A DNA stretch of 61,166 nucleotides from assembly GCA_945883615.1 (NCBI GenBank), contig CAMCYB010000005.1, forward strand, positions 1-61,166. Reading direction: 5' to 3'. Shown here one piece after another: positions 1,587-57,258 of the stretch (position 1 is its first letter; the number at the start of each line of letters is the position of its first letter). This stretch comes from Bordetella parapertussis. Its GTDB lineage: Bacteria > Pseudomonadota > Gammaproteobacteria > Burkholderiales > Burkholderiaceae_B. The notes beneath the pieces were generated by a model. That model was given only the letters and a program-made list of their open reading frames with translations, had not been told where the DNA came from and made no database searches. Both the position numbers and the translations under genes were made by a program.

Positions 1587-2867
1587 TTACCCAATCGAGT
1601 CAGACCAAATGTTTTTTGCCCAACCCCATGCGTAAACCCCTTCAAGTGCGTTAGGTGCTGGTGATAAACCACCCGAACCTGCGACCGTTTTAAAGGTTTT
1701 TTCTGCAGCATCATATTGATGCACGCTCGCCACATGAACCACATCTCTGTCATTAACAAAGCTATAGCATGTATTGGTCAAAACAGGGCTTGGGTTCACA
1801 GGGTAACCGCTTAACTCACAGATAATCGCGGCGGCGGCTACTTTGCCATGTTGGTTGGCCATATGCCCCGACTTAGGCATAGCAGGCGCGATTTGAATCG
1901 AGTCACCTAAGACGTGAATATCTTTAGCTGCAGTTGATTCAAAGTTTAAAAAGTTAACCTGAGCCCAACGACCGTTAGCATTCGCTAAACCCGTATCAAC
2001 AACTAACCCACCTGCACTCATTGGGGGCAAGACATTTAAGATGTCTGCTTTGAAGTCATCACTTAATTCAAATTTAAGTGTCTTATTTTTAGCATCAACA
2101 CCAACAACGTTTGCGCCAGCTTGATATTCAATTAAGCCTGGGTATTGTTCGTCCCAAACGGCTTGGAATAATTTACCTTTAGAAGCAATACCTGGGTTGG
2201 CATCAAACACCACGACTTTTGATTTGGGTTTGTTTTTCTTCATGTAGTTAGCTACTTGACAGGCACGCTCGTAAGGTCCTGGTGGGCAACGGTAGGGCGC
2301 TAATGGAATAGTCAATGCAAAAACGCCACCATCACGCATTTCAGCAAGCTGTTTATGTAGTGCAACCGTTTCAGGGCCCGCTTTCCATGCTTGTAATGTG
2401 ATGCCCGCTTTGTTCGCCTCAGCAAGACCTTCTATTTTATCAAGCATTAAACCGATGCCAGGTGACAAAACAAGTTTGTCGTAAGGCATGATCGTACCCG
2501 AAGCCAGTTGCACGGTTTTTTTCACTGGGTCAATTTTGCTAACACTGTCTTTGACCATCTTGACCCCATACTTTTTAACAAGACCGTCATAGGGTGAGGT
2601 GATGGCATTAATTTGTTGGGCGCCGCCAACAACGAGATTTGACATTGGGCATGAAATAAATTCAGCTTGGGGTTCGATCAGTGTGACATCAGCGCTGTTG
2701 TTTGACAGTGAGCGCAAATACTTGGCTGCTGTCGCGCCACCATAACCTGCACCCACAACAATAATTTTAGCTTTTTGCAAATTGCTGGCTTGCGCTGCAA
2801 ATGCTGGTAAAGCTGATGCGGCACCTATTAGTGCAGCACTTTGACCCATAAAAAGTCGACGGTTCAT
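1587..2867 (-). CDS. soxF: Flavocytochrome c sulfide dehydrogenase flavoprotein subunit
   Basis: A 426-residue periplasmic flavoprotein that oxidises sulfide and passes electrons to a partner cytochrome c. It begins with a Tat-like signal (MNRRLFMGQSAALIGAASALPAFAA), followed by the FAD-binding GAGYGGATAAKYL at residues 39-51. Cys73 in ISCPMSN matches the cysteine that carries covalent FAD in the FccB family. Cys194/Cys203 in YRCPPGPYERAC and the late cysteine in NTCYSFV fit the redox-active disulfide region. The cytochrome gene lies 12 bp upstream in the same unit. SoxF and FccB are homologous names; the sox neighbours favour soxF. Confidence 0.9.
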   Translation of the reverse strand: MNRRLFMGQSAALIGAASALPAFAAQASNLQKAKIIVVGAGYGGATAAKYLRSLSNNSADVTLIEPQAEFISCPMSNLVVGGAQQINAITSPYDGLVKKYGVKMVKDSVSKIDPVKKTVQLASGTIMPYDKLVLSPGIGLMLDKIEGLAEANKAGITLQAWKAGPETVALHKQLAEMRDGGVFALTIPLAPYRCPPGPYERACQVANYMKKNKPKSKVVVFDANPGIASKGKLFQAVWDEQYPGLIEYQAGANVVGVDAKNKTLKFELSDDFKADILNVLPPMSAGGLVVDTGLANANGRWAQVNFLNFESTAAKDIHVLGDSIQIAPAMPKSGHMANQHGKVAAAAIICELSGYPVNPSPVLTNTCYSFVNDRDVVHVASVHQYDAAEKTFKTVAGSGGLSPAPNALEGVYAWGWAKNIWSDSIG

Positions 2868-2879
2868 GTTGAGCTCCTT

Positions 2880-3212
2880 TTAGTTTTTCTTGCCAAGCAT
2901 TAATGCAATGGTATTGATTTGTTCATCGGTGTAGCCCTTTGCTAATTGCGGCATGATCGTGCCCTGACGAGCGCCAGATTTATAGTCGAGTAAGCTTTTT
3001 TTAATCTGTTCATGCGTTAAATCATTAATTTTTGGCATATCACCACCCGCTACGCTGACGCCGTTGGTTCCGTGGCAGTTAGCACAGGTAGCAGCTAAGC
3101 TCATGTTGTAAATTTGTTCTGCCGAATTTGGCTGGGCTAATGCGGTGAGTGGAATGGCAAAACTTACCGCTGAAACAGCAACAACATATTTTAATTTTTT
3201 CATCATTTTCAT
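2880..3212 (-). CDS. soxE: Monohaem cytochrome c, partner of sulfide dehydrogenase
   Basis: A 110-residue c-type cytochrome with a signal peptide ending near ALAQ (residue 27), a single haem site CANCH at 43-47, and a likely axial methionine in GTIMPQLA near residue 87. The family (FccA/SoxE, class I cytochromes) accepts electrons from the sulfide dehydrogenase flavoprotein, whose gene follows 12 bp downstream. The start at 3212 is supported by GGAG eight bases upstream on the minus strand. The symbol soxE rests on context; fccA would be equally defensible. Confidence 0.82.
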   Translation of the reverse strand: MKMMKKLKYVVAVSAVSFAIPLTALAQPNSAEQIYNMSLAATCANCHGTNGVSVAGGDMPKINDLTHEQIKKSLLDYKSGARQGTIMPQLAKGYTDEQINTIALMLGKKN

Positions 3213-4258: not shown

Positions 4259-4333
4259 TTTTAATAGCCCCTAGCATTTAGGGTTTATCTCTATATATGG
4301 ATGACTTTTTTTAAATTACTTTGTAAACTATCC

Positions 4334-4389
4334 TTATAACTTATAACTTATAACTTATAACTAATAACTAATAACTAATAATTTATAAC
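4334..4389. repeat. Heptanucleotide tandem repeat in the soxC divergent promoter region
   Basis: Eight contiguous 7-bp units run from 4334: four TTATAAC, two TAATAAC, one TAATAAT and one TTATAAC. The array is about 60 bp upstream of the soxC start and 75 bp upstream of the divergent hydrolase start. A change in copy number would move promoter elements by 7 bp. No gene overlaps it. Confidence 0.9.
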
Positions 4390-4452
4390 TATTAAAATTT
4401 TGACTGGTTTTTGCCAGTTTTGAACCAATAATAAATTTTTTTGGAGATTTGC

Positions 4453-5823
4453 GTGAGTGCTGATTATGTTTCTCGCAAACCGGGTCGTTTAAAGCGTGCA
4501 CCGGAAAATTTTTTGTCAAGCGATTTTGCTACCGATGTCACCAAAAGCGGGCTAGATGATTCACGTCGAGGTTTTTTACGTAAAAGTTTCTTAGGTGCTG
4601 TTGCTGCCGGAGCAGGTGCTACCGGTTTATCTTCTGCCGCCTTTGCGCAAAATGGCCCAGATGATCCCGCCATTATTACTAAACAAATGTGGCAAACGAC
4701 GTTAGGTCAGCCCGTTGCAGTTAAGCCTTATGGCGAACCGTCAACGTATGAAAATTATTTACAACGTCGCGAGTCACCAGGTCTAACCCGAGTTTCTGCC
4801 GCTTCTGTTTCTTTTGCACCCTTACAGGGCTTTTTTGGCATCATAACGCCAAATGGTTTGCATTTTGAACGCCATCATCAAGGCTGGTACAACATTGACC
4901 CAAATCAACACCGCTTGATGATAAACGGTATGGTCAAAAAAGAAATGGTTTTCACGATGGATGCCCTCATGCGCTTGCCCGCTGTATCGCGCGTGCATTT
5001 TATTGAATGTGGCGCCAATACAGGTATGGAATGGGGAAATGTGGCAGTGCCCACAGTTCAATATACGCATGGCATGTTGTCATGTTGTGAATTTACCGGC
5101 GTACCACTGTCAATGTTGCTTGATATGGCGGGTTACGACAAAACAAATGGCAAATTTGTGTTGGCCGAAGGTAATGATGGGTCTGGTATGACTCGCACAC
5201 TGCCCATTGAAGCCGCGCTTGATGACGTCGTTGTGGCTTGGGCAATGAATGGCGAAATGCTGCGTCCAGAAAATGGCTACCCTTTACGTTTAGTTGTGCC
5301 TGGTGTTCAGGGCGTTAGCTGGGTTAAGTGGCTGCGCCGCATAAAAGTGGGTGATTAGCCTTGGGCAACCAAAGACGAGGCCGTTCACTACATTGATTCC
5401 ATGCCAGATGGTCAACACCGTCAATACACCTCAATTCAAGAATGTAAATCAGTGATTACCACGCCTTCAGGTGGTCAGCAGTTGCTTGAAGCGGGTTTTT
5501 ACAACATCACGGGCTTGGCTTGGTCAGGGCGTGGAAAAATTAAACGTGTTGATGTGTCAACAGACGGTGGAAAAAATTGGCGCGAAGCCAGACTTGAAAC
5601 GCCCATTCAAACTAAAGCGTTGACTCGTTTCAACATTGATTGGGTTTGGGACGGTAAAACCGCTATTTTACAATCACGCGCCATTGATGATACGGGCTAT
5701 GTTCAACCTGCCATTCGTCAATTGCGTGATGTAAGGGGAACACGTTCTGTTTATCACAATAATGCAATTCAATCTTGGAAAATCGATACTAATGGTGAGG
5801 TGAGCAATGTTCAAGTTGGCTAA
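4453..5823 (+). pseudogene. soxC: SoxC sulfane dehydrogenase, interrupted by an in-frame amber codon
   Basis: SoxC is the molybdenum-cofactor subunit of the Sox(CD)2 sulfane dehydrogenase in the periplasm. The start is taken as GTG 4453, with GGAG seven bases upstream. A Tat signal (SRRGFLRKSF) leads into the sulfite-oxidase-type domain with the Mo-ligand cysteine in HFIECGANTG (Cys186). After 301 codons a TAG at 5356-5358 interrupts the frame inside a segment where the family reads IKVGDQPW. The same frame then continues to 5823 with the complete Mo-co dimerisation domain. A single C-to-T change in CAG would explain it. Readthrough or a sequencing error are alternatives. Its 3' end overlaps soxD by 17 bp. 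Confidence 0.85.
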
Positions 5824-6892
5824 ACCCGCAGCGATTGCGGCACTACTGTTTTTGGGTGCATCACATGCTTGGGCACAAAACACCACATCTTACCCAGGTG
5901 TGGGTCGTGCAGCCACCGTCAATGAAGTAAACGCATGGAATATTGACGTGAGGCCAGATTTTAAAGGCTTACCTAAGGGATCGGGAACTGTCGATCAAGG
6001 TACCGTTATTTGGGAAAATAAATGTGCCAGTTGTCACGGTGCGTTTGGTGAGTCAAATGAGGTGTTTACCCCGATCGTAGGTGGCACCACAAAAAAAGAT
6101 CAAGAAACAGGTCATGTACAAGCGTTAGTCACTAACTCGCAACCGCAACGCACCACAATGATGAAAGTGGCAACCATTTCAACGCTATACGATTACATTT
6201 ATCGCGCCATGCCTTGGAATGAACCCCGTTCACTCACACCTGACGACACGTATGCAGTCATGGCCTATATTTTAAATTTAGCCGAAATCGTGCCTGATGA
6301 CTTTACGCTGAGCAATACTAATATCGCTGAAATTCAAAGTCGCATGCCAAATCGTAACGGCATGACACTTGATCATGGTATGCGTACGGTTGACGGTAAA
6401 CCAGACGTCATAGCAGTCGCTTGTATGAAAGACTGTGTAAAAGAAGTCGTCATAACTTCTTCGCTTCCAGACTTTGCACGTGATGCTCACGGCAACATCG
6501 CGACTCAAAATCGCAATTTTGGTCCGACTCGTGGTGCAGATACAACTCAACCAACCTTAGCGAAATTACCCGGTGCGGGTTATCAAATGAAAGTCGTTGC
6601 CATGGCAGCACCTGCAGCAGGTGGTGCCACCACAGGCGGTGCAGCTGCAAAAGAACTCTTTACCAAAAATAATTGTGCGGTCTGTCATGCCGCCAATTCA
6701 AAAATGGTGGGGCCATCGATTGCAGATGTTGCTGCAAAATACAAGGGCAATTCTGATGCTGTTGCACTAATGGTTAAAAAAGTTAAAGTCGGTGGTGCGG
6801 GTAATTGGGGTTCGATACCTATGCCGCCGCACCCACAAATTTCTGATGCTGACTCAACGACAATGGTAACTTGGATGTTGGCTACACCTTAA
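5807..6892 (+). CDS. soxD: Sulfane dehydrogenase dihaem cytochrome c subunit SoxD
   Basis: A 361-residue periplasmic dihaem cytochrome c that takes electrons from SoxC during oxidation of the sulfane sulfur bound to SoxY. It has a signal peptide ending at AWAQ (residue 24), haem sites CASCH at 73-77 and CAVCH at 290-294, and a likely axial-methionine segment GSIPMPPHP near the end. An Ala/Gly-rich linker around 267-282 separates the domains. The start lies inside the last codons of soxC, which indicates translational coupling. This gene is intact although its partner soxC has a stop codon. Confidence 0.92.
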   Translation: MFKLAKPAAIAALLFLGASHAWAQNTTSYPGVGRAATVNEVNAWNIDVRPDFKGLPKGSGTVDQGTVIWENKCASCHGAFGESNEVFTPIVGGTTKKDQETGHVQALVTNSQPQRTTMMKVATISTLYDYIYRAMPWNEPRSLTPDDTYAVMAYILNLAEIVPDDFTLSNTNIAEIQSRMPNRNGMTLDHGMRTVDGKPDVIAVACMKDCVKEVVITSSLPDFARDAHGNIATQNRNFGPTRGADTTQPTLAKLPGAGYQMKVVAMAAPAAGGATTGGAAAKELFTKNNCAVCHAANSKMVGPSIADVAAKYKGNSDAVALMVKKVKVGGAGNWGSIPMPPHPQISDADSTTMVTWMLATP

Positions 6893-6964
6893 GTTATCAG
6901 TTTTTCGGTTTTTTTGTTATCTTTTGATTATTGTCTTAATTTTGAATTTATTGGGGAATGAAAT

Positions 6965-7420
6965 ATGAATCTGCAACGTCGTAATCTTATGCAAATGACG
7001 GCACTCGTTGGTTTAATGGCCAGTGCTGGTCTGTTGACCCAAGCGGAAGCCGCTCAATGGGACAAGGCTGCTTTTGAAGCCAAATCAGTTGATGATGTGG
7101 TGAAAGCATTAGGTGGTTCTGCACCCACCGTTTCTGACAAAGTGACTTTGCGCGCACCAGATATTGCTGAAAACGGTGCGGTTGTACCTGTTGGTGTTGA
7201 AAGTACATTAAATAATGCAACGCAAATGGCTATTTTGGTTGAGAAAAACCCCAGTGCATTAGCAGCAATGTTTATCTTGCCACCTGGCTCTGATGCTTGG
7301 GCATCAACCCGAGTCAAAATGGGTCAAACATCAAATGTTTTTGCCTTGGTTAAATCTGATGGCAAATGGTTTATGTCAACAAAAGAAGTTAAGGTCACAT
7401 TGGGTGGCTGTGGCGGCTAA
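6965..7420 (+). CDS. soxY: Sulfur carrier protein SoxY
   Basis: A 151-residue periplasmic carrier that holds sulfur intermediates on the cysteine of its C-terminal swinging arm. The sequence ends in the diagnostic GGCGG. The N-terminus has a Tat-type signal (LQRRNLMQMTALVGLMASAGLL) ending near AEAA. It is followed by soxZ, its structural partner, after 81 bp. Upstream GGGGAATGAAAT supplies the ribosome binding site. Cys149 would be the thiosulfate attachment residue. Confidence 0.95.
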   Translation: MNLQRRNLMQMTALVGLMASAGLLTQAEAAQWDKAAFEAKSVDDVVKALGGSAPTVSDKVTLRAPDIAENGAVVPVGVESTLNNATQMAILVEKNPSALAAMFILPPGSDAWASTRVKMGQTSNVFALVKSDGKWFMSTKEVKVTLGGCGG

Positions 7421-7501
7421 TTTTCTGTTCAGCCAAAGTACAAATTTGATTGCCCGCTTGGGTTAATAGGCGTAAAGCCAACAAGATTTAGTGAGGAAAT
7501 T

Positions 7502-7816
7502 ATGTCAAGTCCAATGAGAATTCGTGCAACTGAGCAAGACGGTGTGGTCGATGTCAAAGTGCTCATGCGTCATGCGATGGAAACAGGTCAGCGTAAAGAT
7601 GCTGAAGGTAAAGTGATTCCAGCTTGGTTTATTACAGTTGTTGATGCAAAAGTTAAAGATAAGGTTGTCTTCACCGCCGAGTTTGGTCCTGCTGTTTCGA
7701 AAGACCCATTTTTAAATTTCAAACTTAAAGGCAGCGCCAAAAAAGGTGACGCCCTGGCTGTAACTTGGGTTGACAATAAAGGCGAGACTCAAACTGATAC
7801 AGTAGAAGTTAAATAA
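7502..7816 (+). CDS. soxZ: SoxZ, partner of the SoxY sulfur carrier
   Basis: A 104-residue beta-sandwich protein forming the SoxYZ heterodimer on which thiosulfate is oxidised. The motif MRHAMETGQRKDAEGKVIPAWF near residues 24-44 is typical of the family. It has no signal peptide and should be exported together with Tat-bearing SoxY, as is known for SoxYZ. The start ATG at 7502 is preceded by GAGGAAATT. Length is normal. Confidence 0.95.
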   Translation: MSSPMRIRATEQDGVVDVKVLMRHAMETGQRKDAEGKVIPAWFITVVDAKVKDKVVFTAEFGPAVSKDPFLNFKLKGSAKKGDALAVTWVDNKGETQTDTVEVK

Positions 7817-7881
7817 ATTTTCGATCTAATAATAATGGGTTGATTTTAAGTTTGAAAGAAAGCCCAACGGAGGAGCAAAAG

Positions 7882-8688
7882 ATGAAACGTTACGCCATAC
7901 TCGGTACCTTTATAGTTGCATTGAGTGCTGTTGTTGCGCCGCAGGTTTGGGCGCAATCTGCAGCAGATCAGCTCAAAGCATATCGTGATGCCTTAGCCGA
8001 CGGTAACCCCGCAGAACTTTACGAGATGGAAGGTGAAGAGCTCTGGAAAAAACCCATGGGCCCGAAAAATGCCAACCTTGAAAAATGTAACCTCGGTTTA
8101 GGTGATGGTGTTGTAAAAGGCGCTTCTGCTCAGCTGCCCCGTTACTTTAGCGATACCAATAGGGTTCAAGATCTTGAGTCGCGTTTAATGACCTTTATGG
8201 AAACATTACAAGGTATTCCTCAGTCAGAAACGATTGATGCAGCGTGGGGCAAGGGGCAGAAAAAAGTCATGGACGCCGTCGTGGCTTATGTCGTGACACA
8301 ATCTAAAGGTATGAAAGTTAACGTACCCGCCAACTTGCCGCAAGAAAAGAAAATGCTTGCTTTAGGTGAGAAATTGTTTTACCAACAGGGCGGCCCGATG
8401 GATTTTTCATGTGCATCGTGTCACTCAGTTGATAATCAGCGTATTCGCATGCAAGATTTGCCTAATTTAACCAAGTCAGCTGGTGCGCAAGCCGGTTGGG
8501 GTAGTTGGCCTGCTTACCGCGTGTCAAATGGCCAGTTCTGGACCATGCAACATCGGTTGAATGATTGTTATCGCCAGCAACGTATGCCGTTTCCGATTTA
8601 TGGTTCAGATGCCACCATTGCCTTGTCGCTTTATATGGCAAACCAAGCAAATGGTGGTGAAATCATTACCCCCGGCATCAAGCGTTAA
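7882..8688 (+). CDS. soxA: SoxA, diheme-family cytochrome c with one haem site
   Basis: SoxA with SoxX forms the cytochrome that couples thiosulfate to SoxY. GGAGGAG just upstream fixes ATG 7882 as the start, giving 268 residues, although the frame is open further upstream. A signal peptide ends near VWAQ. The N-terminal domain keeps only a lone cysteine (Cys69 in EKCNLGLG), so it lacks the first haem. The C-terminal domain has CASCH at 177-181. Cys229 in RLNDCYRQQRMP matches the active-site cysteine that becomes a persulfide haem ligand. This is the monohaem SoxA type. Confidence 0.94.
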   Translation: MKRYAILGTFIVALSAVVAPQVWAQSAADQLKAYRDALADGNPAELYEMEGEELWKKPMGPKNANLEKCNLGLGDGVVKGASAQLPRYFSDTNRVQDLESRLMTFMETLQGIPQSETIDAAWGKGQKKVMDAVVAYVVTQSKGMKVNVPANLPQEKKMLALGEKLFYQQGGPMDFSCASCHSVDNQRIRMQDLPNLTKSAGAQAGWGSWPAYRVSNGQFWTMQHRLNDCYRQQRMPFPIYGSDATIALSLYMANQANGGEIITPGIKR

Positions 8689-8715
8689 TCGCCCCGTTCA
8701 TTGGAGACTCAAGTT

Positions 8716-9348
8716 ATGAAAAAGCAATTAAATTTAATGAACTGTTTATTGGCGTTGGGCATCGTTTCCTTAGCCACTCTTAACGTTTCATATGCGCAAA
8801 CAACTGACCCGCAAGTGACCGAAACATTAAACAATAGTTTTGTATCAAGAGGTATTGCAAAAAAAGATCGTGTCATACCTGATGATATTCAGGTTTTATG
8901 TTCAGACAAAGTCTTTTTTGAAAGCCCTGCAGGTCAAAAAAGAGCGGTTGAGTTGCAAACCATTGCTCTTCAATCAGTCAAGCCACCTTCAGACGGCAAA
9001 TATCTGGGCGACTGGAAAGAAGGTGAGAAAATAGCTCAAAGTGGTCGAGGCGCAACGTGGTCTGACAATGAAAAAACAGTCAATGGCGGAAGTTGCTACA
9101 ACTGTCATCAGGTCACAAAGGCCGAAGTCTCACACGGTACCATTGGCCCATCGCTTCTAAACTATGGCAAATTACGTGGTAGCAGCGAAGCAATAACCGT
9201 CTACACCTGGAACCGTTTAAACAACTCGAAAGCTTATAACGCTTGCAGCAATATGCCTCGTTTTGCACACTTCGATTTGCTTAGCGAAAAACAGATTCAA
9301 GATGTTATGGCGCTGTTGTTAGACCCACAGTCGCCAGTCAATCAATAA
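8716..9348 (+). CDS. soxX: SoxX, monohaem cytochrome c
   Basis: The monohaem subunit of the SoxAX complex, which accepts electrons when thiosulfate is conjugated to SoxY. ATG 8716 has GGAG nine bases upstream, giving 210 residues. The signal peptide ends near SYAQ (28). The haem site is CYNCH at 127-131 and the likely axial methionine is in CSNMPRF. The N-terminal region before the haem is longer than in the shortest SoxX proteins, as in the larger type II forms. It follows soxA by 27 bp. Confidence 0.93.
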   Translation: MKKQLNLMNCLLALGIVSLATLNVSYAQTTDPQVTETLNNSFVSRGIAKKDRVIPDDIQVLCSDKVFFESPAGQKRAVELQTIALQSVKPPSDGKYLGDWKEGEKIAQSGRGATWSDNEKTVNGGSCYNCHQVTKAEVSHGTIGPSLLNYGKLRGSSEAITVYTWNRLNNSKAYNACSNMPRFAHFDLLSEKQIQDVMALLLDPQSPVNQ

Positions 9349-9376
9349 TCGTTAAATTTTCTTTAGTTGTTTTCTG

Positions 9377-9415
9377 ACAAACCCGCCATGTGTGAAAAAT
9401 GGCGGGTTTGTTTTC
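9377..9415 (+). terminator. Intrinsic terminator between soxX and soxB
   Basis: ACAAACCCGCCAT at 9377-9389 pairs perfectly with ATGGCGGGTTTGT at 9399-9411, a 13-bp stem with a 9-base loop followed by TTTTCTT. This is strong for rightward transcription and lies just 36 bp before the soxB start. Either soxB has its own promoter or it is expressed at a reduced level by readthrough. Confidence 0.85.
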
Positions 9416-9450
9416 TTATGTTCTGTCAGTTTAAATTTTAGGTGTCAAGT

Positions 9451-11178
9451 ATGAGTATGAATCGTCGTGAATTCGTCCAACTTTTAAGCATAGCTTCTGC
9501 CGCAGGCATGGTGCTCAAACCTGGTTTTGCACAAGCCCAAACGGCTGCGAGTACCCTGTACGATGTGCCTAAATTTGGTAATGTGCATTTCATGCATTTT
9601 ACTGACTGTCATGCTCAGCTTACTCCCATTTACTTCCGTGAGCCGAGCGTTAATCTTGGCTTTGGCACCATGAAAGGTCAACCCCCACATTTAGTGGGCG
9701 AGTATCTTTTGAAGTTTTATGGTATTCAACCGAATACGCGTGAAGCGCATGCAATGACGTATCTTGATTTCGATAAAGCAGCTCAAACTTATGGCAAAGT
9801 GGGCGGTTTTGCACATTTGTCTACATTAGTTAAACAAGTCCGCGCGTCACGTCCTGGCGCTTTATTGCTTGACGGTGGTGATACTTGGCAGGGTTCAGGT
9901 ACGGCGTTATGGACCGACGGTCAAGATATGGTTGATGCTTGTTTAGAGTTAGGGGTCGACATCATGACCGCTCACTGGGAAATGACGCTAGGTGAAAAAC
10001 GTGTCAAAGAAATTGTTGATAAAGACTTTAAAGGTAAAGTCGCCTTTGTTGCACAAAACATTAAAACAGCAGACTTCGGTGACCCAGTATTTGAAGCCTA
10101 CACGATGCGTGAAATGAATGGCATTAAAGTTGCTGTCATTGGTCAAGCCTTTCCTTATACACCGATTGCCAACCCGCGCTACCTAGTTCCAAACTGGACA
10201 TTTGGTATCGACGATGAAAACATGCAAGTCACTGTCGATGCAGCGCGTGCAGCAGGCGCTAAAGTCGTTGTTGTGTTGTCACACAACGGTATGGATGTTG
10301 ACTTAAAAATGGCATCGCGTGTCACGGGTGTTGACGCGATTATGGGCGGCCATACCCATGACGGTGTTCCAGCACCAGTAAAAGTGAAAAATGCGGGTGG
10401 TGTTACCTTGGTGACCAATGCGGGTTCTAATAGTAAGTTTTTAGCAGTGCTCGATTTTGATGTGAAAGAGGGCAAAGTGGCAGATTTCCGCTACAAGCTC
10501 TTGCCTATTTTTTCAGACTTGATTAAAGCAGATGCCGGTATGGCAGCCTTGGTCACCAAAATACGTTCCCCTTATGAAGCGAAGCTAGCTGAAAAGTTAG
10601 CCACCACAGAAGGTACCCTTTATCGTCGCGGTAATTTTAATGGCACTTTCGACCAAGTCATAGTTGATGGTTTGATAAAAATGAAAAATGCTGAAATTGC
10701 TTTTTCACCCGGTTTTCGCTGGGGAACATCACTACTGCCAGGTCAGGCCATCACGATGGAGCATTTGCTTGACCAAACGGCCATTACTTACCCGTACACC
10801 ACGGTTACCCCCATGACAGGTGAGACCATTAAAGTGGTGCTAGAAGATGTGGCTGATAATCTTTTTAACCCTGATCCTTACTACCAACAGGGTGGCGATA
10901 TGGTTCGTGTCGGTGGCATGCAATACACGATTGACCCCACCGCATCAGCCGGTAATCGCATATCAAATATGATGCTTAACGGCAAGCAAATTGAAGCGGG
11001 CAAAACGTATAAAGTGGCTGGTTGGGCGCCCGTTTCTGAGCAAGCTAAAGAGGCGGGTGGTGAACCTATTTGGGATGTCATGGCTGCATATTTACGCGAT
11101 GTCAAAACCATACCGGCAAAGGCACCCAATACGCCAGTTATTAAGGGTGCAGAAGGCAACCCTGGTTACGCACCTTAA
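9451..11178 (+). CDS. soxB: Thiosulfohydrolase SoxB
   Basis: SoxB is the dimanganese hydrolase that releases sulfate from the SoxY-thiosulfonate adduct in the periplasm. The Tat signal is MSMNRREFVQLLSIASAAGM, cleaved near FAQAQ. The metallophosphatase domain shows HFTDCHAQL, LLDGGDTWQGSG, AHWEMTLG and GGHTHDG; the C-terminal 5'-nucleotidase domain follows. ATG 9451 is preferred over GTG 9442 because it begins the Tat signal directly and has AGGTG upstream. The 575-residue length is normal. A terminator separates it from soxX. Confidence 0.95.
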   Translation: MSMNRREFVQLLSIASAAGMVLKPGFAQAQTAASTLYDVPKFGNVHFMHFTDCHAQLTPIYFREPSVNLGFGTMKGQPPHLVGEYLLKFYGIQPNTREAHAMTYLDFDKAAQTYGKVGGFAHLSTLVKQVRASRPGALLLDGGDTWQGSGTALWTDGQDMVDACLELGVDIMTAHWEMTLGEKRVKEIVDKDFKGKVAFVAQNIKTADFGDPVFEAYTMREMNGIKVAVIGQAFPYTPIANPRYLVPNWTFGIDDENMQVTVDAARAAGAKVVVVLSHNGMDVDLKMASRVTGVDAIMGGHTHDGVPAPVKVKNAGGVTLVTNAGSNSKFLAVLDFDVKEGKVADFRYKLLPIFSDLIKADAGMAALVTKIRSPYEAKLAEKLATTEGTLYRRGNFNGTFDQVIVDGLIKMKNAEIAFSPGFRWGTSLLPGQAITMEHLLDQTAITYPYTTVTPMTGETIKVVLEDVADNLFNPDPYYQQGGDMVRVGGMQYTIDPTASAGNRISNMMLNGKQIEAGKTYKVAGWAPVSEQAKEAGGEPIWDVMAAYLRDVKTIPAKAPNTPVIKGAEGNPGYAP

Positions 11179-17865: not shown

Positions 17866-19349
17866 TCATGATGCCTAAATTTATATTACTCTGGACAGAT
17901 GCCGCACTCTTTGCTTTAGTGGCGATATGTTTGTTTTACGCATGGCATGTGAGTCGCACTCCCAAAGCGCGTGCGACATGGTCGCGAGTTGCCAAACATA
18001 CCCCGGCTATGTGTTCAGCGGTGGTGCTGAGCTTGTTTGTGGTGATTGGCTTGCTTGACTCTGTGCATTTTCAACCGCGACTACCCCCTGCAGCAGGCGC
18101 ACCTCACAACGCACCAGTGGTCTATGCGCCCAAGGTTGTGTCGTTGCTTGATGTGTTGTTGGCCGATACAGCTTTAGTTTCAACCGAAAAAACGTATTCA
18201 GCCCCACTCGCCTGGAAGCAGTTCACCAAAGAGTCGATCTTGCAAGAAGGGGGCGAACCAATACGTGATTTTCCGCGGTTACGTTTTGGTGGAAAACATT
18301 TAGAAAACCCAGAGGTTCAGTGGTTGTCAGACGTGACCTATCGAGCCACTTTGGGCGGTTTCACAGGTTTGCTGTTAACGGCCCTCATTGGGGTCATTGG
18401 CTTAAGCGTTTTAAACAGATCAAGAAGAATTGCGCAAAACTCTGTTGCACTACCTAAATTGTCTCATTCAAGCGGGTCAGGTGCGCCTTGGCGTGCCATG
18501 TTGATCACCTTTGGCATCATGAGTGTGTTGTTAGGTATCACCATTGGTTTAGCCTCTGGTTATCACGTTTTAGGTACTGACCGAACCGGTAATGACGTGT
18601 TGTGGCAAGCGTTGAAAAGCATTCGAACCGCTTGGGTCATTGGCACTTTAACCACCGTAGCTATGTTGCCACCTGCCATCATCTTTGGCTTGACGGCAGG
18701 TTACTTCAAGGGCTGGGTAGATGATGTCATTCAATACATCTACACCACACTGACTTCAGTGCCAGGTGTTTTGCTCATAGCAGCCTGTGTGTTGATGATG
18801 CAGGTTTACATCGATACGCATCCGGACTTATTTCCCACATCTGCCCAGCGTGCTGATATTCGCTTATTTTTACTATGTTTGATTTTAGGTTTAACGGGGT
18901 GGGCCGGTTTGTGCCGACTTCTAAGAGCTGAAGTCTTAAAGCTTAGAGAGCTTGAATATGTGCAAGCTGCCCGGGCATTTGGTTTGCGACCTTGGGCCAT
19001 CTTGTATCGTCATGTCTTACCCAATGTTATGCATATTATTTTAATTACGTTGGTGCTTGAGTTCTCAGGGCTCGTTTTGTACGAAGCCGTACTGTCTTAT
19101 TTGGGTATTGGTGTTGACCCCAGCATGAATTCGTTTGGCACCATGATTGATGCCTCTCGTCTTGATATGTCACGCGACCCAATGGTGTGGTGGACGTTAC
19201 TTGCTGCCTTTATGTTTATGCTCGCGTTGGTGTTACCCGCCAATCTTTTTGCTGATGGTGTGCGTGATGCTTTTGACCCACGTGGTGGCTTAATGAATGT
19301 GCCAAAGCGCCGGGCTGCTTGGGCGCAACGCTTAAAGGGGGGCGCTTAA
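17862..19349 (+). CDS. ABC transporter permease, OppC/YejE-like, extended
   Basis: A 495-residue permease, longer than usual OppC proteins (about 300) and somewhat longer than YejE. The first third carries two hydrophobic segments and a large periplasmic region (about residues 70-165) with the sequence RFGGKHLENPEVQWLSD. The permease core follows from about residue 210: HVLGTDRTGNDVLWQALK is a classic OppC entry and EYVQAARAFGLRPWAILYRHVLPN is the EAA loop. The start GTG 17862 overlaps the previous stop; ATG 17868 or 17871 are also possible. Confidence 0.88.
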   Translation: MIMMPKFILLWTDAALFALVAICLFYAWHVSRTPKARATWSRVAKHTPAMCSAVVLSLFVVIGLLDSVHFQPRLPPAAGAPHNAPVVYAPKVVSLLDVLLADTALVSTEKTYSAPLAWKQFTKESILQEGGEPIRDFPRLRFGGKHLENPEVQWLSDVTYRATLGGFTGLLLTALIGVIGLSVLNRSRRIAQNSVALPKLSHSSGSGAPWRAMLITFGIMSVLLGITIGLASGYHVLGTDRTGNDVLWQALKSIRTAWVIGTLTTVAMLPPAIIFGLTAGYFKGWVDDVIQYIYTTLTSVPGVLLIAACVLMMQVYIDTHPDLFPTSAQRADIRLFLLCLILGLTGWAGLCRLLRAEVLKLRELEYVQAARAFGLRPWAILYRHVLPNVMHIILITLVLEFSGLVLYEAVLSYLGIGVDPSMNSFGTMIDASRLDMSRDPMVWWTLLAAFMFMLALVLPANLFADGVRDAFDPRGGLMNVPKRRAAWAQRLKGGA

Positions 19350-21031
19350 TGGTTGCGCCAGTTATAACGGTTCAAGGGCTAGAGGTGGTGATTGATCGTG
19401 GCGATCAATGGGCACATGCGGTCAAGTCGTTAGCACTGACGGTGCAGCGAGGCGAAACCTTTGCTTTAGTGGGTGAGTCAGGGTCAGGTAAAAGCATAAC
19501 TGCTTTTGCTTTAATGCGTTTATTACCCGATGCACTTCACGTTGCCGCAGGTTCAATTGATTTTGAAGGTTGTGATGTCAATCAGTTACCTGAAAAAGCC
19601 ATGCAGTCAATCAGAGGCCGACGGATTGGCATGATTTTCCAAGAGCCAAGCACCAGCCTTAACCCAGTCATGCGCATTAGCGATCAATTACTTGAGGTGA
19701 TTGTGGCGCATACGCCTTTACGTGGCCAAGCTGCCCTTGAGCGAGCCATAAATTGGCTAGACCGCGTCGGTTTGCCAGACCCTGCAAAACGCGTAGACGA
19801 TTACCCGTTTCAGTTTTCAGGGGGGCAAAAGCAACGCATCATGATTGCCATTGCTTTAGCGGCTGAACCGGCGTTACTCATTGCCGATGAACCCACTACG
19901 GCGCTTGATGTGACCGTACAAGCCCAAACTCTTGACTTGCTAGCTGATATTCAAAAACAGTTGGGTATGGCTGTATTACTCATTACTCATGATTTAGCTG
20001 TGGTGCGTAGGGTGGCTGACACCGTGGCATTGATGCGCTACGGAGAAATTGTGGAATTGGCCTCAGCCGATGATTTTTTTAATCAACCTAAACACCCATA
20101 TGCGCGTGAGTTGTTTGATGCCATACCTACTTTTGCTAAACGAGGTCGTCGTTTATCAGGGTTACCTTCGGGTGAGCACTTGACTCACCAAGACAGCCAT
20201 GTTCCAACAAAGACTAAGTTTGATGCAAGTGAATCTGTTCTTTCAGTGAAAGCTTTGCATGTCACCTATCGCGGTCAGGGGGGGTTATTTCAACGTAAAA
20301 AATTGGGTAACCCAGTGGTGAAGGGGGTTGATTTTGACTTGTACGCAGGTCAAACCCTTGCGTTGTTGGGTGGTTCGGGTTGCGGCAAAACCACCGTAGC
20401 AAAAACTATTATGCGTTTAATTGATGACGTTACGCAGGTAGCTGGCCAGATCGATTTGTTGGGACAACCCTTATTAAGCGCCTCTGGCAATGTTTTACGC
20501 ACATTACGGCAGCATGTCCAAATCGTTTTTCAAGATCCGTTTGCGTCGCTTGATCCACGTATGCGGGTGGGTGATATTTTAAAAGAAGGCGTGGCTGCAC
20601 TGCTACCGCAGCAATCAGCCCAAGAGCGTCAAGACCGTGTTATGCGCCTGCTGCAACAGGTTGGTTTGCCAGATGATGCGGCCACCCGTTACCCTCACGA
20701 ATTCTCGGGCGGGCAGCGCCAACGCATTGCCATTGCGCGTGCATTAGCCGTTTCGCCACGTATGTTGATACTTGATGAGCCGACATCAGCACTTGATGTG
20801 TCGGTACAAGCTCAAATTTTAGATTTGTTGGCAGATGTTCAGCGTGAGACGGGTTTAGCTTATCTTTTTATCACTCATAATTTTAGTGTGGTTGAGTTTT
20901 TTGCAGATCGAGTCGCTGTTATGCATGAGGGTAAAATAGTAGAGATGGGCACTGCCGAGGCGGTGCTGATGAACCCTACTCACGAGGTTACGCGCAGCTT
21001 GCTGAGTGCTGTACCTAGACTTGAAATTTAA
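19349..21031 (+). CDS. Tandem ABC ATPase, YejF-like
   Basis: A 560-residue cytoplasmic protein with two complete ATPase domains, as in YejF. Domain 1 has GESGSGKS, FSGGQKQR and LLIADEPTT; domain 2 has GGSGCGKT, FSGGQRQR and LILDEPTS. Both include the OppD/F-type tail after the H-loop (LITHDL, FITHNF). ATG 19349 overlaps the stop of the preceding permease (TAATG) with AGGGGGGC upstream, so the longer open frame from 19319 is not needed. It powers the peptide importer encoded by the three genes before it. Confidence 0.92.
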   Translation: MVAPVITVQGLEVVIDRGDQWAHAVKSLALTVQRGETFALVGESGSGKSITAFALMRLLPDALHVAAGSIDFEGCDVNQLPEKAMQSIRGRRIGMIFQEPSTSLNPVMRISDQLLEVIVAHTPLRGQAALERAINWLDRVGLPDPAKRVDDYPFQFSGGQKQRIMIAIALAAEPALLIADEPTTALDVTVQAQTLDLLADIQKQLGMAVLLITHDLAVVRRVADTVALMRYGEIVELASADDFFNQPKHPYARELFDAIPTFAKRGRRLSGLPSGEHLTHQDSHVPTKTKFDASESVLSVKALHVTYRGQGGLFQRKKLGNPVVKGVDFDLYAGQTLALLGGSGCGKTTVAKTIMRLIDDVTQVAGQIDLLGQPLLSASGNVLRTLRQHVQIVFQDPFASLDPRMRVGDILKEGVAALLPQQSAQERQDRVMRLLQQVGLPDDAATRYPHEFSGGQRQRIAIARALAVSPRMLILDEPTSALDVSVQAQILDLLADVQRETGLAYLFITHNFSVVEFFADRVAVMHEGKIVEMGTAEAVLMNPTHEVTRSLLSAVPRLEI

Positions 21032-22270: not shown

Positions 22271-23542
22271 CTAGCCTGACTCAGAGTTTTTCGTCTTGGC
22301 TTGGCAAAAATGAGCTAGATTTGTGGCTAAATCAGGCAAAAGTGCTAAGTTGTGTGTGTATTGGGTCGCTTTTATTTGCCAATCAGCCCAATTAAGTGGC
22401 ATTAAAGCGGTGCTCAAAGCTGTTTCGAGTGAGTGAGTTTGATCAGGGCTAGACCAAGCCATCATCGTCTCATGAACAGGTTTTGGCAGATTGGTTCGTG
22501 CGAGCCAAGCAGCAAGTTTGGTGAGGTGGGTGTCTTCTGTCTGGCGATAAATGTGCCAAATCATGGGTTTACCTGCCCAAAGCGCCCTTACAAAAGAGTC
22601 TTCACCGCGAACAATATTTAAATTCATTGACCAGAGCAGCCGATCATAATCGGGTTGTGTCAAAAAGGGGATGCGTTGCCAAGTAACATGGGAAGGCGTG
22701 ATTAAATCGTCTGGCAATGTCACACTCTCAGAAATTAAAACGTGTACATTTTGACGCTTGATTTTATTTTGCAGCGTGACGTCACTAAGAAAACTTTTTG
22801 CTTCACTCTTTTCAAACGTATCATTCACGCCACCCGTATCACCCGCATCAAGCGTATCAACCGTGTCACCCGTATTACCCGTATAAAGCGTATCAAGCGC
22901 ATTCAAGTCATTTACATTGAGTTCATTTAAAGCATTAAAAAAAGACTGAAAGGGGGCTTGTGGGTACGCAAACAAAGAAATCAAAAAAGGGGGTTCCCTT
23001 TCAGCATCAAAATCAACCCCGATTCTTTCTAAAAATTGCGTTTGTTGTTTAACATCAGCCTGCCAAGCATCACGTTTTTTTATTAAATCGCGCTCTCGAA
23101 TGAGTCCAGCGGTGCGATCTGTAAAACCAGGGTAAAAAAAAGTAGGCGCTAACCCATCGGCACGTTGTGAACTTAAACCGTGATGTGATTCGACCCATTG
23201 TTCGGCACTTAAATACTCAAGTTCAACCCAGCAAGGGTTAGATTCAGTCACCATACGTTCAACCCAAACAGGGCTTAATGGGCAACTGAAACTTGTGATG
23301 ACGATGGGGTAGGGAGAAAGTACAGGGCCATCAATGAGCCAGCGTCGAATATCAATTTGATCAATCAATTGCTGATCAACCTGTGTATTGACACGGGGTT
23401 CAATGTGGGAAAAAACGTTTAGATCGTCAACCCAAAGGCGAATGGCAATGTGATGTTCCGTGCGTAACTGCTTAGCCAGGCGCCATGTGACACCAACATC
23501 ACCATAATGATCAACAATCTGACAAAAAATATCAGCCTGCAT
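22271..23542 (-). CDS. earP: EF-P arginine rhamnosyltransferase EarP with a low-complexity insert
   Basis: EarP transfers rhamnose from dTDP-rhamnose to Arg32 of EF-P. The N-terminal CQIVDHYGDVGVTWRLAKQL contains the two conserved aspartates (Asp11, Asp15), and RGEDSFVRALWAGKPMIW near 312-329 is the nucleotide-sugar site with the conserved glutamate. At 423 residues it is longer than usual, about 380. The excess is a segment at residues 206-250 rich in Asp, Thr, Gly and Asn, coded by degenerate 9-bp repeats. It follows DUF2863 by 8 bp and precedes efp. Confidence 0.93.
   Translation of the reverse strand: MQADIFCQIVDHYGDVGVTWRLAKQLRTEHHIAIRLWVDDLNVFSHIEPRVNTQVDQQLIDQIDIRRWLIDGPVLSPYPIVITSFSCPLSPVWVERMVTESNPCWVELEYLSAEQWVESHHGLSSQRADGLAPTFFYPGFTDRTAGLIRERDLIKKRDAWQADVKQQTQFLERIGVDFDAEREPPFLISLFAYPQAPFQSFFNALNELNVNDLNALDTLYTGNTGDTVDTLDAGDTGGVNDTFEKSEAKSFLSDVTLQNKIKRQNVHVLISESVTLPDDLITPSHVTWQRIPFLTQPDYDRLLWSMNLNIVRGEDSFVRALWAGKPMIWHIYRQTEDTHLTKLAAWLARTNLPKPVHETMMAWSSPDQTHSLETALSTALMPLNWADWQIKATQYTHNLALLPDLATNLAHFCQAKTKNSESG
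22817..22906. repeat. Degenerate 9-bp tandem repeat inside earP
   Basis: About ten 9-bp units of the type CGTATCAMS run from 22817 to 22906 on the plus strand. Examples are CGTATCACC, CGCATCAAG, CGTATCAAC and CGTATTACC. On the coding (minus) strand each gives three residues of the type xxD or xGD, producing the string around LDT, TGD and AGD. The unit length preserves frame. Confidence 0.88.
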
Positions 23543-41461: not shown

Positions 41462-41632
41462 TTTTACGAATATGTTGGTTTAGTTGTTATGTCTAGGTTA
41501 CACTTAATTTAGATGTTTCAAGGCTAGTCAAGCGCCTTCTGCTATAGCTATCCGCAAATCGGTTGGGCCGTTTTCGCGGAAGGTTTTCCTGCATCGTTAC
41601 GGGTGAAGCACCCGCCAAGGTGAAGCGTTATC

Positions 41633-55526: not shown

Positions 55527-56501
55527 GTGGTTTCAGAAAAAGAAGTACTCGATGATGACGAAGCAGCCCGTTTTGTCGTGCCAGAATCTCTCGCGGGGGT
55601 GCGACTAGACAAGGTTTTAGCTACCCTCATGCCTGAACACTCTCGGGGTCGCATCCAAAACTGGTTGGAATCTGGTTACGTTCAGGTCAATCAACAGCCA
55701 GCTAAAATTCGCCAGACCACTAAATGGGGTGACACCATTTCAGTCTGGGCTCAGCCTGCACCCGAAGATTTGGCCTATAAACCTGAAGACGTGGCATTTG
55801 ATGTGGTCAGCGAATCGCCTAGCTGGATTATTGTGCAAAAGCCTGTTGGGCTTGTCACGCATCCGGGTTCAGGCAACTGGGGCGGCACGCTACTCAACGG
55901 GCTTTTATTTCGCTATCCAGAACTTGCTAGCGTGCCCCGCGCGGGTATCGTGCATCGGCTTGACAAAGATACGTCAGGTCTGATGGTGGTGGCGCGCACT
56001 GACATTGCCCAAACTCATTTAGTTAGGCAAATGCAGGCGCGTAGCGTGAGCCGCACATATATTGCCCTTGTGCATGGTCGCACCTTGCCTCAAGGTAAGG
56101 TTGACCGTCCAATCGGGCGTGATCAAAAAGTGCCTGTGCGCATGACCACAGAAAACCCCAATGCACCCCGTGAAGCCATTACGCATTACTCCTGCTTGCG
56201 CGAGGGCCAGTATGAAACCTTGGGTGTTTCTGAACTCATTTGCCAGCTTGAAACAGGCCGTACGCATCAAATTCGCGTGCATTTGGCTAGCCTTGGTCAC
56301 CCTTTGTTAGGCGACACCTTGTACGGTGGGCGACTCGCGGGTAGCATTAAACGGCAAATGTTACATGCCCAATCTTTGGCCTTTGACGACCCGCAAACGC
56401 AACTGCGTGTGCTGTTTGAATCAACTTTACCAGTCGATATGCAAGATATTGTCGACGCAACGGTTTGGAATCAAACCAAAACTGTTACCTATGCCAGATA
56501 A
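55527..56501 (+). CDS. rluD: 23S rRNA pseudouridine synthase RluD
   Basis: A 324-residue enzyme making pseudouridines in helix 69 of 23S rRNA. An S4 domain (GVRLDKVLATLMPEHSRGRIQNWLESGYV) precedes the RluA-type catalytic domain with active Asp in HRLDKDTSGLMVVAR and the later QLETGRTHQIRVHLASLGHPLLGD (described in parts). The frame is open from 55335, but that region overlaps bamD on the other strand. GTG 55527 gives the normal length. It is divergent from bamD, as in many proteobacteria. Confidence 0.92.
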   Translation: MVSEKEVLDDDEAARFVVPESLAGVRLDKVLATLMPEHSRGRIQNWLESGYVQVNQQPAKIRQTTKWGDTISVWAQPAPEDLAYKPEDVAFDVVSESPSWIIVQKPVGLVTHPGSGNWGGTLLNGLLFRYPELASVPRAGIVHRLDKDTSGLMVVARTDIAQTHLVRQMQARSVSRTYIALVHGRTLPQGKVDRPIGRDQKVPVRMTTENPNAPREAITHYSCLREGQYETLGVSELICQLETGRTHQIRVHLASLGHPLLGDTLYGGRLAGSIKRQMLHAQSLAFDDPQTQLRVLFESTLPVDMQDIVDATVWNQTKTVTYAR

Positions 56502-57258
56502 TTTATTTCTACCTATCAATGGCTTAAGTGAACAAGTGGCTGGCTTTTGTAGCACTCGGCAGGGTGGTGTGAGCCTACCGCCCTATAAATCTTTAAACCT
56601 AGGCTTGCATGTCGGCGACGACCCACAAGCCGTTGGCGCAAACCGAGCGCTATTAAATGCACACCTACCCAAACCACCTGTATGGTTAAACCAGGTGCAT
56701 GGTGTCAACGTCTTTGACGCTGATCAGCCATGTCAGCCTCATGCACAGCACCCCATTCCTACTGCTGACGCCGCCATTACGACACAAACTGAGCGTCCAC
56801 TCGCTATTTTGACGGCCGATTGCTTACCCATAGTGATAGCAAATCATAGCGGCACGGTCTTAGGCTTGGCTCATGCTGGCTGGCGAGGTTTGGCACAGGG
56901 GGTGCTTGAAGCTACATTGCAAGCTATGCGCCAGGCAAGCCCCTCTAAGCAAAGCTGGTCTGCATGGGTTGGCCCAGGCATTGGCGCGCAGGCATTTCAA
57001 GTCGGTCAAGATGTTTACGACACCTTTGTCGATCAAAGCGCAACCTACGCTCGTTTTTTTACGTTAGACCCTAACCAGCCCAGCAAATGGTTTGCCGACT
57101 TGGCAGGGCTTGCCGGTCATCGTTTATCGTTGCTGGGTTCACAATTTGTTCATCAAAGTCAGCGCTGTACCGTAACTGAGGCAGAGCTATTTTTTTCATA
57201 TAGACGTGACGGTCAAACGGGTCGTATGGCGACGATTGCGTGGTTAAAGAACAAATAG
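56491..57258 (+). CDS. pgeF: Purine nucleoside phosphorylase / peptidoglycan editing factor PgeF (YfiH)
   Basis: A 255-residue protein of the YfiH/laccase-domain family. It has the metal-site motifs HGVNV, TADCLP and LAHAGWRGLAQG, and a late YRRDGQTGRMATIAWL. Members have been described as purine nucleoside phosphorylases and, in E. coli, as an editing factor for cell-wall precursors. ATG 56491 overlaps the end of rluD by 11 bp, the conserved rluD-pgeF coupling. The longer frame from 56326 runs inside rluD and is rejected. Confidence 0.92.
   Translation: MPDNLFLPINGLSEQVAGFCSTRQGGVSLPPYKSLNLGLHVGDDPQAVGANRALLNAHLPKPPVWLNQVHGVNVFDADQPCQPHAQHPIPTADAAITTQTERPLAILTADCLPIVIANHSGTVLGLAHAGWRGLAQGVLEATLQAMRQASPSKQSWSAWVGPGIGAQAFQVGQDVYDTFVDQSATYARFFTLDPNQPSKWFADLAGLAGHRLSLLGSQFVHQSQRCTVTEAELFFSYRRDGQTGRMATIAWLKNK

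Follow-up and report, generated by a model that had tools for sequence, protein, structure and literature searches.

The soxC gene of the window (the whole 61,166-nucleotide stretch of DNA analysed here) is interrupted by a single in-frame TAG codon at 5356–5358 on the + strand, and on balance we favour the explanation that this codon is a genuine and very young single-base nonsense allele in an otherwise ordinary soxC, by which the SoxCD sulfane dehydrogenase would have been lost. We infer that the organism does carry the TAG, that the truncated SoxC is inactive and that metabolism is affected. The preliminary description of this sequence had proposed a choice among recent loss of the enzyme, readthrough of the codon and an error in the sequence; that three-way choice stands, and below we weigh its members against each other and against a true two-gene form. 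The finding itself is an ordinary one, an instance of a known phenomenon that was observed once; we found no description of a nonsense allele of soxC in the literature searched.

The soxC reading frame extends from GTG at 4453 to TAA at 5821–5823 on the + strand and comprises 456 residues when the TAG is counted as a residue. The TAG is the sole stop within it: the earlier claim of one interruption in an otherwise open 456-codon frame is confirmed, with no second internal stop. Read through, the protein matches the SoxC model TIGR04555 over positions 1–408 of 408 with 617.7 bits, above the cut-off of 420, whereas either half alone falls below that cut-off: the 5′ part (4453–5358, with the TAG at its end; 301 residues by conventional translation) scores 360 bits, and the 3′ part (5359–5823; the 154 residues after the TAG) scores 236.5 bits against positions 258–408. 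The TAG occupies codon 302, just where the match to PF00174 (residues 145–304) runs out and upstream of the match to PF03404 (residues 330–440), and thus lies between the two domains of SoxC, as had been noted. The 5′ part consists of an export-signal region, which we take to be of the twin-arginine type, and the molybdopterin domain (PF00174); the 3′ part consists of a linker and the Mo-co dimerisation domain (PF03404) and shows no decay. The two domains are accordingly not encoded in one uninterrupted chain, PF00174 preceding the stop and PF03404 following it. The first in-frame start codon after the TAG is an ATG at 5401–5403 (+ strand), which has no close ribosome binding site. A predicted structure of SoxC (25 rows) had a mean pLDDT of 35, too low for use.

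The genes around the TAG are those of a sox cluster, soxCDYZAXB, at 4453–11178 on the + strand; soxC lies directly 5′ of soxD and is followed further on by soxYZAXB, the context that marks a SoxC gene. Recognisable SoxC sequence was said to continue beyond the TAG in the same frame and to run into soxD, and it does: the 236.5 bits to TIGR04555 come from this stretch, and the last 17 bases of the frame also belong to soxD (5807–6892, + strand, starting with ATG at 5807), an overlap that the nearest relative, L001, shares. SoxD has 361 residues, as in L001, and contains cytochrome c domains; no NCBIfam model matched it above its cut-off, and its dN/dS relative to L001 is 0.044. The remaining genes, all on the + strand, match their models above cut-off and end to end: soxY (6965–7420, TIGR04488), soxZ (7502–7816, TIGR04490), soxA (7840–8688, TIGR04484), soxX (8701–9348, TIGR04485) and soxB (9442–11178, TIGR04486).

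Upstream of soxC, at 4333–4390, the window holds a tandem array of a heptamer (period 7, 8.3 copies, 92% matches) that by eye has no counterpart in L001; such an array might vary in length from strain to strain and might affect soxC expression. Also 5′ of the sox genes, on the − strand at 1587–3212, lies a gene for a flavoprotein resembling sulfide quinone reductase, although its score against NF049943 (97 bits) is far below the cut-off of 525. It adjoins a gene for a small protein with the motif CANCH, presumably a c-type haem motif.

We compared soxC with its relatives at three levels, and the TAG was found in none of them. A scan of genome contigs confirmed 406 relatives; among the best 80 of these, no aligned soxC locus has an internal stop, and residue 302 is encoded by a sense codon throughout (M in 52, Q in 12, K in 8, A in 7 and I in 1). 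In the genus of the nearest relative's genome (G001), a match is present in seven of nine genomes and is free of internal stops in each; the other two, G003 and G004, have no match to the window SoxC and have either lost Sox or are incomplete. In the family of G001, the genus included, 97 of 268 genomes match above the TIGR04555 cut-off, giving 117 matches, a few of which are partial and all of which lack internal stops. Nor did we find a split soxC among the 80 loci (best 80 of 406), the seven genus genomes or the 117 family matches. Thus, among the relatives examined, the TAG at residue 302 appears to be confined to the window sequence, and residue 302 appears to be a tolerant position and not a fixed glutamine. 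The assertion that the family normally has glutamine here therefore needs correction (methionine is far more frequent among the 80), but glutamine is indeed the residue of the nearest relative among them, L001 (from the metagenome-assembled genome UBA6179, genome G001), with which the window protein shares 96% identity.

Protein searches with the full-length, 5′ and 3′ queries recovered no second copy of the TAG allele among the matches listed, an absence that is weak evidence, given a protein set clustered at 90% and listings of 120 matches per search. Among the matches listed, full-length relatives reach at most 96% identity and 3′ pieces at most 92%. All 120 matches listed for the 5′ part are full-length proteins of 452–469 residues. 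Those listed for the 3′ part include pieces of 140 to 265 residues, the best of them 92% identical; of 11 such records inspected, six are 155 residues long and start with methionine in the position of residue 302, and a single record of 140 residues starts where ATG 5401 would be. These seven records (P0131, P0134, P0136, P0138, P0140, P0142 and P0184) are encoded on contigs between 574 and 1415 bases long. Plasmids gave no match, and the two stretches of viral contigs that fitted a pattern do not encode a relative. Two side observations emerged from the same comparisons. Genome G008 holds, beside a soxC copy 91% identical to that of the window, a second soxC-like gene (L089, C175:836–2062) that is 47% identical to the window's and above the SoxC cut-off. 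At residue 298 (5344–5346), 12 bases or four codons 5′ of the TAG, the window SoxC has K, whereas 79 of the 80 relatives (best 80 of 406) have E.

Comparison with L001 also bears on the age of the stop. The 154 residues of the 3′ part are all identical to those of L001, with 50 synonymous and no nonsynonymous differences (dS 0.76), while the 5′ part carries 19 nonsynonymous and 105 synonymous differences. In the mature protein all 10 residue differences from L001 precede the TAG (P = 0.006 under an even spread over 390 sites); if anything, the 3′ part is more constrained than the 5′ part. It is not frozen in general: a relative with 91% identity, L083, differs from the window protein at 12 positions after the TAG and at 28 before it. 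We found neither decay nor a second lesion 3′ of the TAG relative to L001, and the gene does not have the character of a decayed pseudogene. Because downstream decay is absent, the stop is likely to be extremely young, or read through, or an error of the consensus. If the 3′ part is assumed to have been neutral from the origin of the stop onwards, zero replacing changes in 357.7 sites place the age of the stop below 0.0084 changes per site (95%), approximately 1% of the window/L001 dS of about 0.8; on this bound a real stop must be very recent, unless it is read through. The proposal that SoxC was lost only recently thus finds support in the absence of replacing changes from 154 downstream codons. 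The low dN/dS around and beyond the TAG (0 vs. 50 changes downstream) would look the same if the stop had arisen too recently to leave a trace.

A fresh nonsense allele accounts for these observations as follows. The host would be a Burkholderiales bacterium, kin of UBA6179; and translation of soxC would stop at residue 301 and yield a product with the molybdopterin domain and no dimerisation domain. Because the dimerisation domain would be lost and the 3′ part lacks a good start of its own, the SoxCD sulfane dehydrogenase is predicted to be inactive. SoxXA, SoxYZ and SoxB would remain; the incomplete Sox system that they form would probably still oxidise thiosulfate, at a lower rate and with sulfane sulfur appearing transiently. 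Against a fresh allele it has to be said that the TAG was seen once, with no second sequence of the species found, and that the strong purifying selection on soxD and on the 3′ part of soxC fits a young loss or no loss equally well. Substitution errors are generally rare in consensus sequence, and for this reason we prefer a real allele to an error.

The first and main alternative is that one base of the TAG is wrong, through a sequencing or assembly error or a mixed-strain consensus, and that the soxC of the organism is intact; we regard this as a possibility to be taken seriously, though doubtful. It is favoured by the fact that the allele was seen once, by the absence of any trace of decay in the 3′ part, and by the protein searches, in which the 120 matches listed per search include neither a 5′ half nor a 3′ piece that is near-identical. 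The K298 change, the second odd change within a few codons, might indicate that the consensus is weak in this stretch, or it may be chance. The rest of the window argues in the opposite direction. An NCBIfam scan covered 45 of the 49 other window genes (four being outside it). Of the 45, 27 match a model above cut-off nearly end to end, and the 18 that remain are uninformative because they have no model above cut-off or a partial match, e.g. the EarP gene (22271–23542) and the gene for a double ABC ATPase (19319–21031). Because these 27 genes match their models nearly end to end, the consensus outside the soxC TAG looks sound. We also searched the window for in-frame stops with at least 60 open codons on either side, a scan that bears on stops and not on frameshifts. 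It returned 17, of which those outside other listed genes are the soxC TAG and seven ordinary gene ends (TAA or TGA, never TAG), and no second stop resembles that of soxC. Of all possible single substitutions in the 50 window genes, 4.2% create a stop, so that a sizeable error rate would be required to produce one by error; and the change is a substitution, not an indel in a homopolymer. As an unrelated feature of the window, the sucA RNA motif RF01070 was found at 41545–41627 (45.4 bits), directly 5′ of the sucA gene at 41633.

A second alternative is readthrough of the TAG: either a suppressor tRNA or leaky termination would allow some full-length SoxC to be made, residue 302 being a tolerant position. 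We consider this unlikely, although the absence of replacing changes downstream of the TAG and the variability of residue 302 among relatives (M, Q, K, A or I) are both consistent with it, and the sections of PMC7918605 considered here describe in-frame stops accompanied by low dN/dS from across the bacteria. That study demanded a stop in at least two genomes, whereas we saw this TAG in no relative examined. In the window, TAG acts as a terminator: among 49 other genes chosen from lists of open reading frames, 36 end in TAA, eight in TGA and five in TAG. One of the five is the PgeF gene (56326–57258), whose TAG lies at a natural gene end, because its model is matched above cut-off to position 222 of 223. 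Reassignment of TAG is unlikely and was set aside, because TAG ends five of these 49 genes. A search for other genes with in-frame TAG had been suggested as a check; within the window, the scan with at least 60 open codons on either side found no further gene with a comparable internal TAG. The window contains no tRNA gene. As a weak proxy for the organism itself, 30 loci were taken from 33 tRNA matches in the relatives G001 and G008; ARAGORN named tRNAs at 29 of them, none with a CUA anticodon. The tRNA set of G001, with only 8 matches, is incomplete. A more specific version, to which we give little credence, is a functional leaky amber codon at a tolerant interdomain site: low readthrough or a strain-specific suppressor tRNA would yield a little full-length SoxC, the truncated Mo-domain protein would be the main product, and one codon would balance a complete Sox system against an incomplete, sulfane-releasing one.

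The remaining alternative, a true two-gene form with one protein carrying the Mo domain and another the dimerisation domain, is very improbable: the TAG does lie at a domain border, and the 3′ records that start with methionine, the sole result that leaves this reading some room, show that gene finders can call a start there, but the seven records sit on contigs so short that contig ends are the simpler and probable cause, no split was seen among the loci, genus genomes and family matches examined, and the 3′ part lacks an export signal, whereas SoxC acts in the periplasm. A split gene starting at ATG 5401 was likewise disfavoured: the preliminary description had judged a split protein the less likely because no ribosome binding site sits near this codon, and this holds, as the ATG begins 42 bases past the TAG and, of seven Shine-Dalgarno-like words sought in the interval, only GAGG occurs, 20 bases 5′ of the ATG. 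The conserved split in a relative that would have spoken for two genes was not encountered at any of these levels.

Compared with known SoxC proteins, the window protein is alike over the full TIGR04555 model and, when read through, over residues 68–455 in alignment with its best solved relative, 2xts_A, which is named a sulfite dehydrogenase; it differs by the one in-frame TAG at residue 302, which leaves each half short of the SoxC cut-off. The closest published parallel to the allele itself is the survey of Belinky et al. (2021), which describes in-frame stops as widespread among bacterial genes and as often subject to purifying selection (PMC7918605). The parts of that survey considered here share with our case an in-frame TAG and low dN/dS, and its worked example is likewise a TAG opposite a sense codon in relatives; however, its criterion of occurrence in at least two genomes, intended to lower the number of errors, excludes the soxC TAG, which was seen in one sequence only.

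For the predicted consequence, the nearest known system is the soxCD deletion of Cupriavidus pinatubonensis JMP134, as reported in the portions of PMC9959259 drawn on here: thiosulfate oxidation was slower, sulfane sulfur reached approximately 80 µM at 2 h and was later gone, and what thiosulfate had been consumed ended up as sulfate, with the help of a persulfide dioxygenase. The word “tetrathionate” does not occur in the main text of that paper, and the earlier statement that loss of SoxCD would leave sulfur or tetrathionate as products goes too far, given that the JMP134 deletion produced sulfane sulfur transiently and then sulfate. The likeness is that sulfane dehydrogenase is missing while the other Sox proteins are present, as would apply to the window; the difference is that the JMP134 deletion was engineered and removed both genes, whereas soxD of the window is intact and the inactivity of SoxC is predicted. 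A genome such as this one should be scored neither as SoxCD-positive from gene fragments nor as SoxCD-negative from one unchecked base. Sox systems with and without SoxCD both exist (as described in PMC9959259), and if the stop is real, the window would have caught the first step from a complete Sox system to one without SoxCD.
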